A DNA stretch of 64,000 nucleotides from an uncultured Sphingomonadaceae bacterium (GTDB lineage: Bacteria; Pseudomonadota; Alphaproteobacteria; Sphingomonadales; Sphingomonadaceae): assembly GCA_947501695.1 (NCBI GenBank), contig CANMWO010000001.1, forward strand, positions 1,054,001-1,118,000, written 5' to 3'. Shown piece by piece: positions 37,512 to 43,077 of the stretch. A program made the translations under genes and the position numbers. Position 1 is the stretch's first letter; each line of letters opens with the position of its first letter. Under the pieces are notes generated by a model, which made no database searches, was not told the DNA's origin, and was given only the letters and a program-made list of their open reading frames with translations.

Positions 37512-37918
37512 GGTTCCTCAGATATCTCGGTATTTTTGTTCATCCGGCTTTGTAATTCGGTGATCTCTTCTATCGTATATCCGCCAGAAACCTGTGCCGT
37601 TCGCCCGTATATATACTCATTTAATACGGGCGTACTCAACAGCTTATCTTCGAAGCAAAAGGCAAATTTCTTCCCAATGCGGCCTTTCTGAACGGCGGCA
37701 AATTTGTCGTAACCGGTCTCAGAAAATTCGATGTTTAATACAGGTTCGTTCGAATATGAACCAAAGCCTATCCCGGCATATTTGATATCTGAAGCGACAA
37801 GCCGAAGCTCGAAATTCCGAACGGGTTGCGCCGAACAGTCATGCTCATAACCGGGTTCTTCTACTTCAACATCTGAAGCATCTGGTCCTGCCATAAGGAG
37901 CAATGCAGTCCAAATCAT
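37508..37918 (-). CDS. orphan SecD-P1-head-like protein
   Basis: 136 aa. A short hydrophobic N-terminus (MIWTALLLMAG) may be an export signal. The region PVLNIEFSETGYDKFAAVQ, GRIGKKFAFCFEDKLLSTPVLNEYI and QVSGGYTIEEITELQSRM closely follows the P1-head subdomain of SecD (which reads like GKxxAIVLDGxVxSAPxIxxxI...ISGGFTxEEAxxL). All membrane helices of SecD are absent. Its ATG overlaps the sufE stop (ATGA), so it is translated with sufE. Function unknown. Confidence 0.7.
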   Translation of the reverse strand: MIWTALLLMAGPDASDVEVEEPGYEHDCSAQPVRNFELRLVASDIKYAGIGFGSYSNEPVLNIEFSETGYDKFAAVQKGRIGKKFAFCFEDKLLSTPVLNEYIYGRTAQVSGGYTIEEITELQSRMNKNTEISEEP

Positions 37919-38322
37919 GACTTATATCGTTCCGCCGTTTCATTGATCAGTGCGATCATGTTCGGTATGCCTTGGGTGCGATTAGAACTGAGCTGGTTTT
38001 TCAAATCAAACGGAGCCAGTTTTTCCGCAATATCTGTTTTAAGAACAGCATCAATCCCTTGATCCTGAACGGTTTCGAGGACCAGTGCGATAATACCCTT
38101 AGTAATGGCGGCATTGCTGTCGGCGAGAAAATGCAACCGGCCATCGTCTAATATAGTGGGATATACCCAAACGGAGGCAGAGCATCCGCGCACTAAAGTT
38201 GCATCGGTTTTGAGGGCGTCTGGCATTGTTTCCAGCTCTTTGCCCAAATCAATCAAAAGCCGGTATCTGTCATCGGCTTCGAGAAATTCATATTCTTCAA
38301 CAAGATCGTCTATTTTGCTCAT
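37915..38322 (-). CDS. sufE: SufE-type cysteine desulfurase activator
   Basis: 135 aa. Accepts persulfide sulfur from SufS during Fe-S cluster assembly. The active Cys lies in TLVRGCSASVWVYP; the DDRYRLLIDLGKELETMPD N-terminus and FLADSNAAITKGIIALV block are typical. No other suf gene in the window. Confidence 0.93.
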   Translation of the reverse strand: MSKIDDLVEEYEFLEADDRYRLLIDLGKELETMPDALKTDATLVRGCSASVWVYPTILDDGRLHFLADSNAAITKGIIALVLETVQDQGIDAVLKTDIAEKLAPFDLKNQLSSNRTQGIPNMIALINETAERYKS

Positions 38323-38386: not shown

Positions 38387-38617
38387 TTAAAGCTCTACTC
38401 CAGCGGCAATTGCTTCCAACTTGCGGATGCGCTCTTTAAGGTCCGCTACTTCGATCCTTGACGATGCGCTAGGCGGATTTTCTGCGCGATGCTGATCCAA
38501 TTCCTTGGTCTTCAAAGCAATCCAATCACGCCAACCACGCAAGGCGATAAGGGAGACCGCCGTTAGGCCAATTAGAGTAAATGCAGCAGTCATCAGGTAA
38601 AAACTGGGTTCTGGCAT
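38387..38617 (-). CDS. PspB-like small coiled-coil protein A
   Basis: 76 aa, last of the array. TM helix (residues ~7-27, YLMTAAFTLIGLTAVSLIALRG), a polar linker, then the shared C-terminal motif in short form: ADLKERIRKLEAIA. Lacks the EIExLRD tail of proteins B-F. Ribosome site AAGGA. Confidence 0.75.
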   Translation of the reverse strand: MPEPSFYLMTAAFTLIGLTAVSLIALRGWRDWIALKTKELDQHRAENPPSASSRIEVADLKERIRKLEAIAAGVEL

Positions 38618-38661
38618 GATGCTATCCTTCTTCTCTTCCTGCTTCTTATTCGGGAACTGGT

Positions 38662-38922
38662 TCAGTTATCCCGCAATTTCTCAATTTCATTTTCGAGATC
38701 GCGTGCGCCGCGATCATCAGTGGCGATTTTTTCCAGAACGGCGACGCGTTCTTTTAGATATTTGACTTCATCACGAAGGCGTCCGGCGTCGGGATCGACC
38801 AAAGTCACAGGGTTGCCGTCTTCGTCCGACGCAATGCCATGTTTGGCCTGAACGCGGGTGTTGACCACTTTGCCAACCGTGATGACGATGATGATGGCAA
38901 CAACCATTTCAAATGGATTCAT
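38662..38922 (-). CDS. PspB-like small coiled-coil protein B
   Basis: 86 aa. N-terminal TM helix (FEMVVAIIIVITVGKVV), linker with AKHGIASDEDGNPVTL, then VKYLKERVAVLEKIATD and ENEIEKLRD, the array's signature. Ribosome site GGAGGG. Confidence 0.78.
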   Translation of the reverse strand: MNPFEMVVAIIIVITVGKVVNTRVQAKHGIASDEDGNPVTLVDPDAGRLRDEVKYLKERVAVLEKIATDDRGARDLENEIEKLRDN

Positions 38923-38950
38923 TTATTCTTTTCCCTCCAATTATGTATTT

Positions 38951-39217
38951 CTAGATGTCTTTCAGCTTCGCTATTTCACTCTCAAGTTCGCGTGCACCAC
39001 GTTCATCGGTTACGATTTTTTCCAATGTCGCTACGCGTTCTTTCAGATATTTCATGTCCTCATTCATCCGCCGGCCGTCTTCGTTTTGAGGGACGTTTTT
39101 GCCGAGCAGCAGCAATTCTTTCTGTTTGTCGACCATCTTGCTTTGGTGCCGTGTCCATATCCACAGACCACCTAGTCCGAATGGTGCAAGGGGAATCAAA
39201 TAACCAAGCCAATCCAT
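38951..39217 (-). CDS. PspB-like small coiled-coil protein C
   Basis: 88 aa. TM helix (WLGYLIPLAPFGLGGLWIW), basic stretch, then MKYLKERVATLEKIVTDERG and ESEIAKLKD, nearly identical to protein B in the motif. Its ATG overlaps the stop of protein D by one base. Confidence 0.8.
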   Translation of the reverse strand: MDWLGYLIPLAPFGLGGLWIWTRHQSKMVDKQKELLLLGKNVPQNEDGRRMNEDMKYLKERVATLEKIVTDERGARELESEIAKLKDI

Positions 39218-39498
39218 CAGTTTAATTCCTTTGTTTCTGGTTCGTCGCGAAGGTCTTCGATCTGCCCAGCTAAGTCGGCCCCTTTGTCGGTAATAATGCG
39301 TTCCAACACCCGGACGCGTTTCTCCAACCGCTCTGTATGTGCTCCATATTGTGCTGCTTTTTCGGCAGTCATCTGCGTCTGCACTTTCAACTGCTCTTGC
39401 TTATATTTGATCCATGGCTTTACAAAGACGCCGCCAATAACCGCTAATACGCCGCAAGAAATTCCGAGGATCGGGATTATTAGCGGGTTGAGTTCCAT
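39217..39498 (-). CDS. PspB-like small coiled-coil protein D
   Basis: 93 aa. TM helix (PLIIPILGISCGVLAVIGGVFV), then a helix KPWIKYKQEQLKVQTQMT, then TERLEKRVRVLERIITDKG and GQIEDLRDE. Ribosome site GGAGA before ATG 39498. Confidence 0.8.
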   Translation of the reverse strand: MELNPLIIPILGISCGVLAVIGGVFVKPWIKYKQEQLKVQTQMTAEKAAQYGAHTERLEKRVRVLERIITDKGADLAGQIEDLRDEPETKELN

Positions 39499-39512
39499 AT
39501 CGATATCTCCGA

Positions 39513-39842
39513 TCAGTTTGCGCGCTTGTCGCGCAGGGATTCAATTTCATTGGTAAGGCGGTGGCTATCGTCAGTCACAATGCGTTCGACATTCGCCAGT
39601 CGGTCTTTCATCGATCCAACTTCAGCGCGAAGTTCAGCATTTTCTGTGGTCAGCAATTTTACCCGTTCGACAGCTTCCTGATCCGTCTTAGGATGAAGCG
39701 CTTTGCCCCAGCTGCTTTCTAAGGGATATCCGTTTTTGATCCGCATCCAGGTGGTGACTACCCAACCGCCAACTGCAAAGGCGGCAATAACGGCTGCATA
39801 AGGTAGAATTTCCAAAACAAACGCTGCTTTATCCGGTTCCAT
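39513..39842 (-). CDS. PspB-like small coiled-coil protein E
   Basis: 109 aa. TM helix (ILPYAAVIAAFAVGGWVVTTW), then KNGYPLESSWGKALHP, a segment shared with protein F, and MKDRLANVERIVTDDSH followed by NEIESLRDK. AAGGA ribosome site. Confidence 0.82.
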   Translation of the reverse strand: MEPDKAAFVLEILPYAAVIAAFAVGGWVVTTWMRIKNGYPLESSWGKALHPKTDQEAVERVKLLTTENAELRAEVGSMKDRLANVERIVTDDSHRLTNEIESLRDKRAN

Positions 39843-39852
39843 ATTTTCGTCC

Positions 39853-40146
39853 TTAATCTCTCAGGGCTTCAATTTCTTCAGCGGTGCGTTTTGCAGGATC
39901 GGTAGCGATCCGTTCCAGCACTGCGAGCCGTTCTTGCAAGCGATCGATTTTTCCAACCAATTCTTCGTTTTCGCTGGATAGAAGCTCAATTTTACGTTCG
40001 GCCTTGGGATCACCTTTTTCGGTCGTACCACCCCATTCATTTTCTAGCGGATAGCCATGTTTGGCTCTGATCCAGTTGTTAATGATATAGCCAGCATAGC
40101 AAACTGCGATGATAGCGATAACAAATCCCGGTCCACCCCAATTCAT
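39853..40146 (-). CDS. PspB-like small coiled-coil protein F
   Basis: 97 aa. TM helix (FVIAIIAVCYAGYIINNW), AKHGYPLENEWGG like protein E, then LQERLAVLERIATDPAK and EEIEALRD. GGAGA ribosome site. Directly follows pspC in the operon. Confidence 0.82.
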   Translation of the reverse strand: MNWGGPGFVIAIIAVCYAGYIINNWIRAKHGYPLENEWGGTTEKGDPKAERKIELLSSENEELVGKIDRLQERLAVLERIATDPAKRTAEEIEALRD

Positions 40147-40174
40147 AACTAATCTCCTTCAGTATCTCTTATCT

Positions 40175-40555
40175 TTAGCGCAGTTTCTCAATTTCATTGG
40201 AAAGCGCGCTGTTGTTGCTGGTGTAATACATTTCCATATCAGCGAGTCGGCGGTCAATTTCGCGAAATCTCGATCTGACATCTCGTGTGGCCCTCCGAGG
40301 TGATTGACGAACACCCTGCCAAAATTCTCGCTCCGACGCATCGCCATAAAGTTCGATCGGTTTTGGGTCGAATGATTTTGCTGCGATCCAGTAAGCGATA
40401 AATGTGATTGGAAAAGGAACTGCAAAAGTTGCGAATACAGCGGCTACTCTGACCCAAAACAATTTCATTCCTGTGTAATCGGCTATCCCTGCGCAAACAC
40501 CACTCCATTTAGCGCGTTGTTTATCAAGATAAAATCTGGTGCGGGTCGAAGACAT
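40175..40555 (-). CDS. pspC: PspC-family envelope stress protein
   Basis: 126 aa. The PspC domain is at the N-terminus (YLDKQRAKWSGVCAGIADYTGMKLFWVRVAAVFATF with a TM hairpin to about residue 62). The C-terminal cytoplasmic tail ends FREIDRRLADMEMYYTSNNSALSNEIEKLR, carrying a version of the motif of proteins B-F. Two bases after pspB. In E. coli PspB and PspC sense membrane stress and relieve PspA inhibition of PspF. Confidence 0.93.
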   Translation of the reverse strand: MSSTRTRFYLDKQRAKWSGVCAGIADYTGMKLFWVRVAAVFATFAVPFPITFIAYWIAAKSFDPKPIELYGDASEREFWQGVRQSPRRATRDVRSRFREIDRRLADMEMYYTSNNSALSNEIEKLR

Positions 40556-40557
40556 GA

Positions 40558-40857
40558 TTAGCGCCTTTCTTTCAAAAGATTGTCAAAATTTTCAAGCGTT
40601 GGTTTGGGCTCAGTCGTCGCATCTGATAAAGCTGACTGGCGCCAATTCGGATTGTCTGCTGCCATAATCCGTTCGATTGTTTCCATACGGTCATCCAGCT
40701 TGCGGGCCATGATGCGCAGCTCATCCAGCAAGGATTCATCTTCATTGGTGATGGTTGCTGCGGTTTTCCATTTGGTAACATAGTGAAAAATCAACCATGG
40801 CAATCCAATAAACAGTGTACCCATCACTATGGGAATGATGATCAGTTCTTCTTGCAT
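40558..40857 (-). CDS. pspB: phage shock protein B
   Basis: 99 aa, the canonical PspB slot between pspA and pspC. One TM helix (IIIPIVMGTLFIGLPWLIFHYV) and a coiled coil LDELRIMARKLDDRMETIERIMAADNPNW, the normal PspB signature, with a longer than usual tail. Its start overlaps the pspA stop. Confidence 0.92.
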   Translation of the reverse strand: MQEELIIIPIVMGTLFIGLPWLIFHYVTKWKTAATITNEDESLLDELRIMARKLDDRMETIERIMAADNPNWRQSALSDATTEPKPTLENFDNLLKERR

Positions 40858-41528
40858 TATTTGTCACCTTTTTTCATGGCCGCCTTCATGGCTTCCAGTT
40901 CATCATCTACCTTGTCGCTGCTTTCGAGTGCTGCAATCTGGCTTTCCAGGGTTTCCGGTTCACCGCCCATGGTTAGGGCATCGGCACGGCCTTCTGCATG
41001 ATCAACCTGGCGTTCGAGATATTCAAATTTTGAAAATGCATCATGAACTTTGTCGCCATTATACATTTCGCGAATTTTATACCGGTTTTCGGCGCTCTCA
41101 AGGCGGTTGACCAAGCTACTCTGGCGAGAGCGGGCTTCCTGCAATTTCTTTTGCAGTTTCGAGATGTCACCTTCAGAAGCGCGCAATGCATCGTCCAATA
41201 CTTGGATTTCGACGGTTAGCTGTTCCGCCATGTCTGACGCCTTCCGTTTTTCGATCAGTGCTGCCTTAGCGAGATCTTCGCGATCCTTGGAAAGCGCCAG
41301 TTGCGCTTTTTCATTCCAGTCTTCGGTCAGCTGGTTGAGCTTATCAATATGCCGGCGCATTTCCTTTTGATCAGCAATCGTGCGAGCAGCAGAGGCGCGA
41401 ACTTCGACGAGGGTTTCTTCCATTTCCAGGATGATCATGCGGATCAGTTTTGACGGGTCCTCCGCTTTGTCCAGCATGTCTGTGACATTGGCGGCGATGA
41501 TATCGCGTGTTCTTGAAAAAATACCCAT
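40857..41528 (-). CDS. pspA: phage shock protein A
   Basis: 223 aa from ATG 41528 (GGAG before it), starting MGIFSRTRDIIAANV. ESCRT-III/Vipp1-like helical protein: the amphipathic N-terminal helix binds stressed membrane, the coiled coil (ADQKEMRRHIDKLNQLTEDWNEKA and on) oligomerises, and the protein inhibits PspF when free. Second gene of the sigma54-driven operon. Confidence 0.97.
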   Translation of the reverse strand: MGIFSRTRDIIAANVTDMLDKAEDPSKLIRMIILEMEETLVEVRASAARTIADQKEMRRHIDKLNQLTEDWNEKAQLALSKDREDLAKAALIEKRKASDMAEQLTVEIQVLDDALRASEGDISKLQKKLQEARSRQSSLVNRLESAENRYKIREMYNGDKVHDAFSKFEYLERQVDHAEGRADALTMGGEPETLESQIAALESSDKVDDELEAMKAAMKKGDK

Positions 41529-41677
41529 TGTTAAACTCCGGTAGTTGCTAGCGTTGTGCCTGGAATGGTTCGAACGTTCAGGCTGGTCTTCAATAAATTC
41601 TACGTCTTCAATCTGGAAAGGTGGCCGGGACCTTACTTCGGCAAGGGGGAATGAAGGGGTCCCGGCCATTTCGCCTG

Positions 41678-41860
41678 TCACGCTTTATAGCTGACAGTAG
41701 GGGAAATTGTACCATCTTCTGAGATGGTCGGGCCTTGCGCTTCGGCAGGGCCAACGGCGCTGATCAAAATCGTCAGACTAAACAGCAGGACGGAAATAAC
41801 CGCAGAAACATCGGTTCTGCTTAAATTTGCGAATTTGCCTGTTTTCGTGGTTGCTGACAT
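41678..41860 (-). CDS. small exported peptide, first gene of the psp operon
   Basis: 60 aa with a very strong ribosome site (GGAGGA) before ATG 41860. A signal peptide covers most of it: basic start, VSAVISVLLFSLTILISAVGPAEA, cleavage probable after AEA, leaving an 18-residue mature peptide QGPTISEDGTISPTVSYKA minus the first residue or so. It lies between the sigma54 promoter and pspA, so it should be induced with the psp genes. No family recognised. Confidence 0.68.
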   Translation of the reverse strand: MSATTKTGKFANLSRTDVSAVISVLLFSLTILISAVGPAEAQGPTISEDGTISPTVSYKA

Positions 41861-41912: not shown

Positions 41913-41928
41913 TGCAGGAGGCGTGCCA
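41913..41928 (-). promoter_or_regulatory. sigma54 promoter of the psp operon
   Basis: On the minus strand TGGCAC (41928-41923) then GCCTCC and TGCA (41916-41913): the -24 GG and -12 GC are at correct spacing (consensus TGGCAC-N5-TTGCA, one mismatch). It faces the small peptide gene and pspA, and divergent pspF encodes the matching activator. Confidence 0.85.
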
Positions 41929-42027: not shown

Positions 42028-43077
42028 ATGGATCGCGAAAATAAATTTATCGGTGAGTCCGGGGCTTTCCTCGATGCGGTAGAAAAAGCGAGCCGTGCGG
42101 CCGCTTTGGACCGTCCCGTTCTTGTTATAGGGGAGCGCGGCACAGGTAAAGAGCTGATCGCAGAACGGCTCCACCGCCTAAGCCCGCGGTGGGATGGCCC
42201 ACTCATTACATTAAACTGTGCAGCGATGCCGGAAACACTGATTGAAGCGGAGTTATTCGGTCATGAGGCAGGCGCCTTTACCGGTGCGACGAAAAACCGG
42301 GTAGGGCGGTTTGAAGAAGCTGATGGTGGCACCTTGTTCCTCGATGAACTGGGAACTTTGTCCTCAGCGGCACAGGAACGATTACTTCGTGCGGTCGAAT
42401 ATGGCGAAATTACCCGCATTGGCTCTTCCCGCCCACAGCGCGTTGATGTGCGCATCGTCGCCGCGACAAATGCTGACCTTCCGAAAATGGCCGATGAAGG
42501 GACTTTCCGAGCCGATTTGTTAGATCGCTTATCGTTCGAGGTCGTAACTCTCCCACCGCTGCGATATCGCGAGGGTGATATTCCCGTGCTGGCCGATTAT
42601 TTCGGACGGCGTATGGCGGCCGAGCTGGAGTGGGAGCAATGGCCGGGCTTTGGACAATTGGCATCCGAAGCGCTGCAACGGCATCAATGGCCGGGAAATG
42701 TCCGCGAACTGCGCAATGTGATCGAACGAGCCGTCTATCAGTGGAGCGATTATTCGCGTCCCGTGGATCATATTGTCTTCGACCCATTTGAATCGCCTTG
42801 GAAACCGCAAGTCCGGCCATCGCGACAAACCCAATCGGTCGAGCCTGATAGTGCACCCGAGCAAGTAGCCGTCACCCCTGCACCCGCACCTGTTGTAACC
42901 GAACCGGCCTTTGGGGCCGTTGATGACATGAAAGAGGCGGTCGAGGCATTTGAGAAACGCATATTGGAATCGGCATTGGCAAAATCGCGCTATAACCAGC
43001 GACAAACTGCCAAGGCGCTCAATCTAACCTATGACCAGTTGCGCCATTCGCTAAAGCGTCACGATCTCTTGGGATAG
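42028..43077 (+). CDS. pspF: psp operon transcriptional activator PspF
   Basis: 349 aa from ATG 42028, matching the E. coli start. Sigma54 AAA+ domain directly at the N-terminus with no receiver domain: Walker A IGERGTGKE, the GAFTGA sigma54-contact loop, Walker B GGTLFLDELG and the arginine-finger region FRADLLDRLSFEV. A Pro/Val linker of ~50 residues leads to a Fis-type HTH (NQRQTAKALNLTYDQLRHSLKRH). Held inactive by PspA in the known system. Confidence 0.96.
   Translation: MDRENKFIGESGAFLDAVEKASRAAALDRPVLVIGERGTGKELIAERLHRLSPRWDGPLITLNCAAMPETLIEAELFGHEAGAFTGATKNRVGRFEEADGGTLFLDELGTLSSAAQERLLRAVEYGEITRIGSSRPQRVDVRIVAATNADLPKMADEGTFRADLLDRLSFEVVTLPPLRYREGDIPVLADYFGRRMAAELEWEQWPGFGQLASEALQRHQWPGNVRELRNVIERAVYQWSDYSRPVDHIVFDPFESPWKPQVRPSRQTQSVEPDSAPEQVAVTPAPAPVVTEPAFGAVDDMKEAVEAFEKRILESALAKSRYNQRQTAKALNLTYDQLRHSLKRHDLLG

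Follow-up and report, generated by a model that had tools for sequence, protein, structure and literature searches.

This study focused on a phage-shock-protein (Psp) operon in a window of 64,000 nucleotides from an uncultured Sphingomonadaceae bacterium (assembly GCA_947501695.1, contig CANMWO010000001.1, positions 1,054,001 to 1,118,000 of the forward strand), in which pspABC are followed directly by six small minus-strand genes, here named X1 to X6 in the order of their transcription. The set is real and conserved, and is under-described rather than wholly new. By our estimate there is about an even chance that X1 to X5 are Psp-response adaptors that span the inner membrane once and serve as alternative membrane partners of PspA, which they would contact directly or by way of PspB and PspC. 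An earlier note, drawn from the letters of the sequence, had read the genes as a tandemly duplicated PspB-like family, lettering them A to F from low to high coordinate, i.e., in the reverse of the present numbering, and this interpretation was partly supported.

The genes were found where the note had placed them. On the minus strand, pspA (40857..41528), pspB (40558..40857) and pspC (40175..40555, with an X-like C-terminal tail) score above the cut-offs of their NCBIfam models (TIGR02977, 280 bits against 242.95; TIGR02976, 88.7 against 51.7; TIGR02978, 115.6 against 104, respectively), and are followed by X1 (39853..40146, 97 amino acids (aa), F of the note), X2 (39513..39842, 109 aa, E), X3 (39217..39498, 93 aa, D), X4 (38951..39217, 88 aa, C), X5 (38662..38922, 86 aa, B) and X6 (38387..38617, 76 aa, A). 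From pspA to X6 the intergenic gaps are -1 to 44 bases, and a single sigma54-type promoter element, TGGCACGCCTCCTGCA (41913..41928, minus strand), lies upstream, with a mean of 0.09 matches per shuffled window, so that the short gaps and the single sigma54-type operon of the note were both confirmed. By layout and sequence, the X genes sit in the pspA operon behind a sigma54-type site, as expected of Psp components. With a self-written sigma54 matrix, 83 of 91 pspA upstream regions scored at least 14.5.

Each of the six proteins has one N-terminal hydrophobic (transmembrane, TM) stretch, as had been described. The two-part C-terminal motif is present in X1 to X5, its first half reading LQERLAVLERIATD, MKDRLANVERIVTD, LEKRVRVLERIITD, LKERVATLEKIVTD and LKERVAVLEKIATD, and its second half EIEALRD, EIESLRD, QIEDLRD, EIAKLKD and EIEKLRD, respectively; X3 and X4 thereby depart slightly from the consensus that the note gave for the five. 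The motif is truncated in X6, which retains only LKERIRKLEAIAAG and has a conserved end, ADLKERIRKLEAIAAGVEL, and the PspC tail (DRRLADMEMYYTSN...EIEKLR) could be recognised as a relative of it; both agree with the earlier description. X1 and X2 also have in common a juxtamembrane motif, W[IM]RxKxGYPLExxWG. The motif is the best-conserved region of X1 to X5 (mean identity 0.85–0.96, against 0.56–0.87 for the linkers), which bears out the observation that linkers vary while the motif is kept. For X1, the X protein whose helices were modelled, AlphaFold2 predicted a TM helix (residues 6–30), a short linker and a single, motif-bearing 50-residue helix (47–96), with a predicted local distance difference test (pLDDT) score of about 79–93 from residue 51. 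Overall confidence was a predicted TM-score (pTM) of 0.36 and mean pLDDT of 76.7 for X1, and 0.46 and 70.9 for PspC, using 55 of 81 X1 relatives and 53 of 80 PspC relatives, each with the window protein added.

The type profiles were built, for each X gene, from its relatives in the same genus and family, after four fragments or over-long open reading frames (ORFs) and exact duplicates had been dropped. When the 854 stop-to-stop ORFs of at least 40 residues in the window were searched, the X1 to X5 profiles matched one another at E values of 2.1e-5 to 1.3e-25, and there were weaker matches to X6, PspB and PspC. With the profiles of the X genes, PspB and PspC, the sole unrelated ORF among the 854 to be matched had an E value of 0.48 (X2 profile).

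The same layout was seen in the best 80 of 518 confirmed loci, which are not a random sample and include Sphingomonas, Sphingobium, Sphingopyxis, Sphingorhabdus and others. Counting the genome studied here, 54 of 60 relatives have pspA. When the family was sampled evenly (44 genomes, one per genus), 42 had a pspA match, 41 of them over the cut-off, and the same 42 carry X genes, while neither of the two genomes lacking a pspA match does. All but one of the 148 X matches in this sample lie within 2,822 bases of pspA; the remaining one is an orphan 1.3 Mb from pspA (L142, 1694-1924, genome G265). Copy number varies between genera, in line with one of the checks that the note had proposed. Among 30 same-genus loci (genus being assigned at a PspA identity of at least 85%), 18 have five X1–X5-type genes, seven have four, two have six, and there is one each with seven, with three and with a cut contig. 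For the 41 family loci of other genera, the numbers of loci having one to seven such genes are 7, 3, 14, 10, 5, 1 and 1, and X6 is present in 35. Counts for single loci may be off by one because ORF calls were mechanical; locus L067, having no room downstream of pspA, was scored zero, and in genome G002 pspA lies at a contig edge.

Beyond the family, 17 of 19 loci from other families of the order have the operon without an X gene, and the other two have one X gene (a twentieth row, L055, is the second PspA of a family genome and was excluded from this count). Location in the psp operon is therefore mainly a feature of the family, with the exception of these two loci from another family of the order. 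The X1/X2 profile matched 269 of 296 genomes of the order, weakly outside the family, and 8 of 289 genomes of the class, 4 of which belong to the family. In eight members of the order without pspA, no pspC was found over the cut-off (one partial match).

The X types appear to be older than the genera sampled. In a tree of 73 proteins (101 columns, with many forks open), five changes sufficed for the six groups, the minimum possible, against an average of 44 for shuffles; X2 and X4 each form one side of a supported branch, and X1, X3 and X5 are compatible with single origins. Since the types cluster across genera, most duplications look old and the paralogues have been kept as distinct genes. 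Tandem duplication, as claimed in the note, thus stands for the most part as an old process, although X4 is nested with X5, and further X copies beyond the set occur in some genomes. Median omega values of 0.03–0.14 (4–8 pairs for each gene) indicate purifying selection, and are only rough because dS (synonymous divergence) is near saturation for several genes. Shortened X genes were seen in two same-genus loci (L042 and L066), so individual copies can be lost, and doubled types were seen in locus L048.

How the X proteins relate to PspB and PspC is a matter of degree. None of X1 to X6 reaches an NCBIfam or Pfam cut-off, and for this reason annotating them as ordinary PspB was rejected. The PspB model TIGR02976 gave 18.5 bits for X3 (0.0018) and 16.3 bits for X4, and did not list X1, X2, X5 or X6, while the PspC model TIGR02978 gave 20.8 bits for X2 (E 2.6e-4, positions 50–121 of 121) and 13.8 for X3. 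The PspC domain itself (PF04024) had no match in X1 to X6 and was found only in PspC among the ten proteins scanned. Tails were compared with hhalign after a 70-bit score limit and length limits had been applied to the rows. X1 to X5 matched each other at E 3e-11 or better, and X6 matched the X5 tail at 94%. Against the PspC tail the values were 95% (X2), 88% (X1), 79% (X5), 78% (X3), 35% (X4) and 3% (X6), and against PspB 88% (X3), 78% (X2), 71% (X1), 44% (X4), 36% (X5) and 1% (X6). Because the values for the two are similar, the end cannot be assigned to PspB over PspC, and it is best regarded as PspB/PspC-like, neither clearly more than the other. Of the duplicated PspB-like unit proposed in the note, then, the duplicated family holds; its PspB character does not hold in particular, as X2 does best with the PspC tail and X3 with PspB. 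Column-shuffled controls stayed below 5%, except for 6% (X3 against X5), 11% (X6) and two degenerate seeds at 99.8–99.9%, one of PspC (against X1 to X5) and one of PspB (against X1 to X6); the instance that was looked at (X1, PspB seed) aligned 8 columns with 0 identities, and the remaining ones were assumed to be alike. Chance similarity between coiled coils was set aside, as the window profile search, the linkage to pspA within the family and these shuffled controls all speak against it. Matches of X2 to the ZapB and bZIP families of Pfam were taken as generic coiled coil, and a search for a solved structural relative gave none in the PDB for PspC, and for the X1/X2 profile nothing beyond generic coiled coils (E 0.15 or worse).

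PspB (TIGR02976 / PF06667) resembles the X proteins in its single N-terminal TM helix, its R-[VI]-x-x-L-E-x-I coiled-coil core, its psp operon location and its size. It differs in that X1 to X5 have an additional half motif, TD-x(4-7)-EIExLR, X1 and X2 have the GYPLE juxtamembrane motif, there are several X types per genome, and all X proteins fall under the PspB cut-offs. The PspC tail, at the end of TIGR02978, has a similar two-part end ([LM]-E-x-[YI]-x-T-[SD] followed by E-I-x-x-L), but the X proteins are without the PspC domain. In some operons (L053, L119, L059, L033 and L039) the full PspC is adjoined by another PspC-like protein that lacks the C-terminal tail.

The tie between X genes and pspA is wider than the psp operon location. 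An X5-type profile matched 8 of the 289 genomes of the class, including 4 from the family, and 51 of 398 genomes of the phylum, in which a PspA scan found 76 over the cut-off and 31 with weaker matches. With the 19 family genomes among the 398 left out, an X match at E 1e-5 or better is present in 27 of the 57 genomes whose pspA exceeds the cut-off and in 0 of the 322 others (Fisher p 9e-26, genomes treated as independent). Of 36 such orphan genes, 13 are on a contig other than that of pspA and 23 are separated from pspA by 79,732 bases or more. Near orphan X genes, in 20 inspected stretches of about 10 kb each from 16 genomes, neither PspA nor PspF was seen. Homologues scattered away from psp genes had been named in the note as evidence against its proposal, and they are found outside the family, whereas within it nearly all are close to pspA; since every orphan at E 1e-5 or better comes from a genome whose pspA exceeds the cut-off, they favour a PspA link more than they refute it. 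For all nine full-length orphans the top NCBIfam match is the PspB or PspC model, below the cut-off (the best TIGR02976 score being 40.7 bits), and all nine align with TIGR02978 from positions 42–83 to 120–121 of 121. The orphans were found with the X5 profile, yet the tree puts five outside proteins beside X3, on long branches and with unsure placement. In three gammaproteobacterial-looking loci (L258, L260 and L262), a conserved ORF of 64–66 aa, starting MKLIM[RK][ST]E[FY]D, directly follows the orphan X gene.

Published work offers a model for how such proteins could act. According to two papers, the leucine-zipper region of E. coli PspC is required for binding PspA and not for binding PspB (PMC3068692), and in the on state the C-terminal cytoplasmic domain of PspC binds PspA and PspF is freed (PMC5596341). 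If X1 to X5 are membrane adaptors for PspA, each would have its own membrane helix and linker, followed by a helical rod, probably cytoplasmic, that ends in a coiled coil of the kind shared by PspB and the PspA-binding tail of PspC. Under stress, they could dock PspA at differing membrane sites or states, drawing it off PspF and so switching on the operon that encodes them. The distinct, long-kept types may answer to different membrane states, a division of labour in which X6 could be a shorter partner or cap.

Several observations weigh against this. Among the 57 out-of-family genomes with pspA, no X gene was detected in 30, so PspA does not need X. Absences carry less weight than presences in this search, as only a limited set of candidates is scored in each genome. 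At E 1e-3 the counts become 28 of 57 with pspA against 4 of 322 without, these last being weak matches in open frames of 229–1185 aa. Weaker PspA-family matches are present in 31 of the 322. The co-occurrence counts are also phylogenetically non-independent, the seven families with orphans all being among the 13 with pspA. Similarity to PspB and PspC stays below family cut-offs and is weak for X4 (35–44%) and X5 (36–79%), and coiled coils can look alike. The side of the membrane was judged from flanking charge alone, and the TM flanks of X1 and X5 are neutral or negative, giving no support for a cytoplasmic C-terminus. Lastly, there is only a hint that the orphans outside the family are co-regulated, because sigma54 scores of at least 12 precede just 7 of 38 orphans, compared to 4 of 135 background genes (one-sided p 0.0025, computed at this threshold only). 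The corresponding counts are 13 of 38 and 17 of 135 at a score of at least 8, 10 of 38 and 10 of 135 at 10, and 3 of 38 and 1 of 135 at 14; several orphans have no sigma54 site upstream. A scan for sigma70 promoters and terminators stayed close to background, with 4 and 9 found against 6.1 and 6.0 expected.

Other roles can be envisaged. The X proteins might be modulators on the PspB side, pairing with PspB or PspC through the coiled coil and so adjusting or silencing the PspBC switch, with no contact to PspA, the extra copies being decoys or setting a threshold. We think this rather improbable, even though the X3 tail is the most PspB-like and, going by the title of Flores-Kim and Darwin 2016, the cytoplasmic domains of PspB and PspC in Yersinia reportedly interact and silence the Psp system; the orphans track pspA, and their alignments fall at the end of the PspC model, which argues mildly the other way, as pspA is the one Psp gene compared there. 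It is also conceivable, and in our opinion unlikely, that they are effectors rather than sensors, a co-induced coiled-coil scaffold which stabilises the inner membrane or clusters PspA polymers and has no part in signalling. Their place after pspABC and their variable copy number would suit such a role, and there is a precedent in E. coli PspG, described in two papers as a PspF-controlled effector encoded elsewhere, in which it resembles the orphans (PMC3068692, PMC9239133), but distinct types kept apart across genera suggest more than bulk scaffold.

Least credible, to the point of being very improbable, is that recent tandem duplications of one small gene have left copies of little individual function. 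Copy number does vary, and the shortened and doubled copies mentioned above would fit, but the old paralogy, the purifying selection and the presence of X genes in every one of the 42 family-sample genomes that have pspA are difficult to reconcile with it. Recent tandem amplification was likewise set aside, given the cross-genus clustering of X1, X2, X3 and X5; X4 looks younger. Returning to the membrane-adaptor reading, a broader form of it can be put forward tentatively, and is more doubtful: the X proteins may be an unrecognised superfamily of PspA membrane receptors, in which a PspC-type PspA-binding coiled coil is mounted on varied helices and linkers, with sphingomonads holding an old, non-redundant bank and some other pspA-bearing proteobacteria keeping one or two orphans. 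If so, one PspA–PspF switch would read several kinds of membrane damage. The membrane binding partner or partners of PspA, and the way in which a single response detects so many stresses, are still debated in work on Psp. A conserved set of up to seven small candidates with one membrane pass each, in genera including Sphingobium and Sphingomonas, together with orphans that track pspA, offers a direct test of whether PspA has several receptors.

The statement in the note that no such system had been described was too strong. The accessible text of Ravi et al. 2024 mentions duplicates of PspB within the psp operon, AOL22920.1 being an example, and notes that divergent PspB can be fused to PspC (PMC11237479). 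In that text the duplicates occupy one clause, with nothing on types, motif, copy range, duplication age or pspA-linked orphans. A 2022 neighbourhood survey named neighbours by HMMscan domain models, as far as its accessible part shows (PMC9239133), and a survey of that type is expected to miss the X proteins because they reach no Pfam cut-off. E. coli PspG and PspD are also small proteins of the Psp response, pspG being an orphan like the out-of-family X genes, but neither model is among the X matches listed. In Zymomonas, pspABC increase under ethanol and a hypothetical gene, ZMO1062, is numbered between the psp genes ZMO1061 and pspA ZMO1063 (PMC3495753); the available part of a Novosphingobium paper has PspC as a table heading only (PMC5443232). 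No published study of the X genes was found in the literature searched, which covered few subscription papers.

On either side of the set lie genes named from their sequence. The divergent ORF at 42028..43077 (plus strand, ATG start probably at 42028) is presumably pspF. Downstream, 64 bp beyond X6, is a gene which we take to be sufE-like (37915..38322, minus strand); it is a neighbour and was not counted as part of the set. In 36 of the 41 family loci of other genera and in 13 of the 20 rows from other families, a relative occurs downstream of pspA at a distance of up to 5.5 kb. Between the promoter and pspA, the first ORF (41678..41860, minus strand, 60 aa) has one hydrophobic stretch and is a possible extra member of the set. 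It has an intact counterpart in 12 of 15 same-genus loci inspected, and in some other genera this position is occupied by a different short, hydrophobic ORF.

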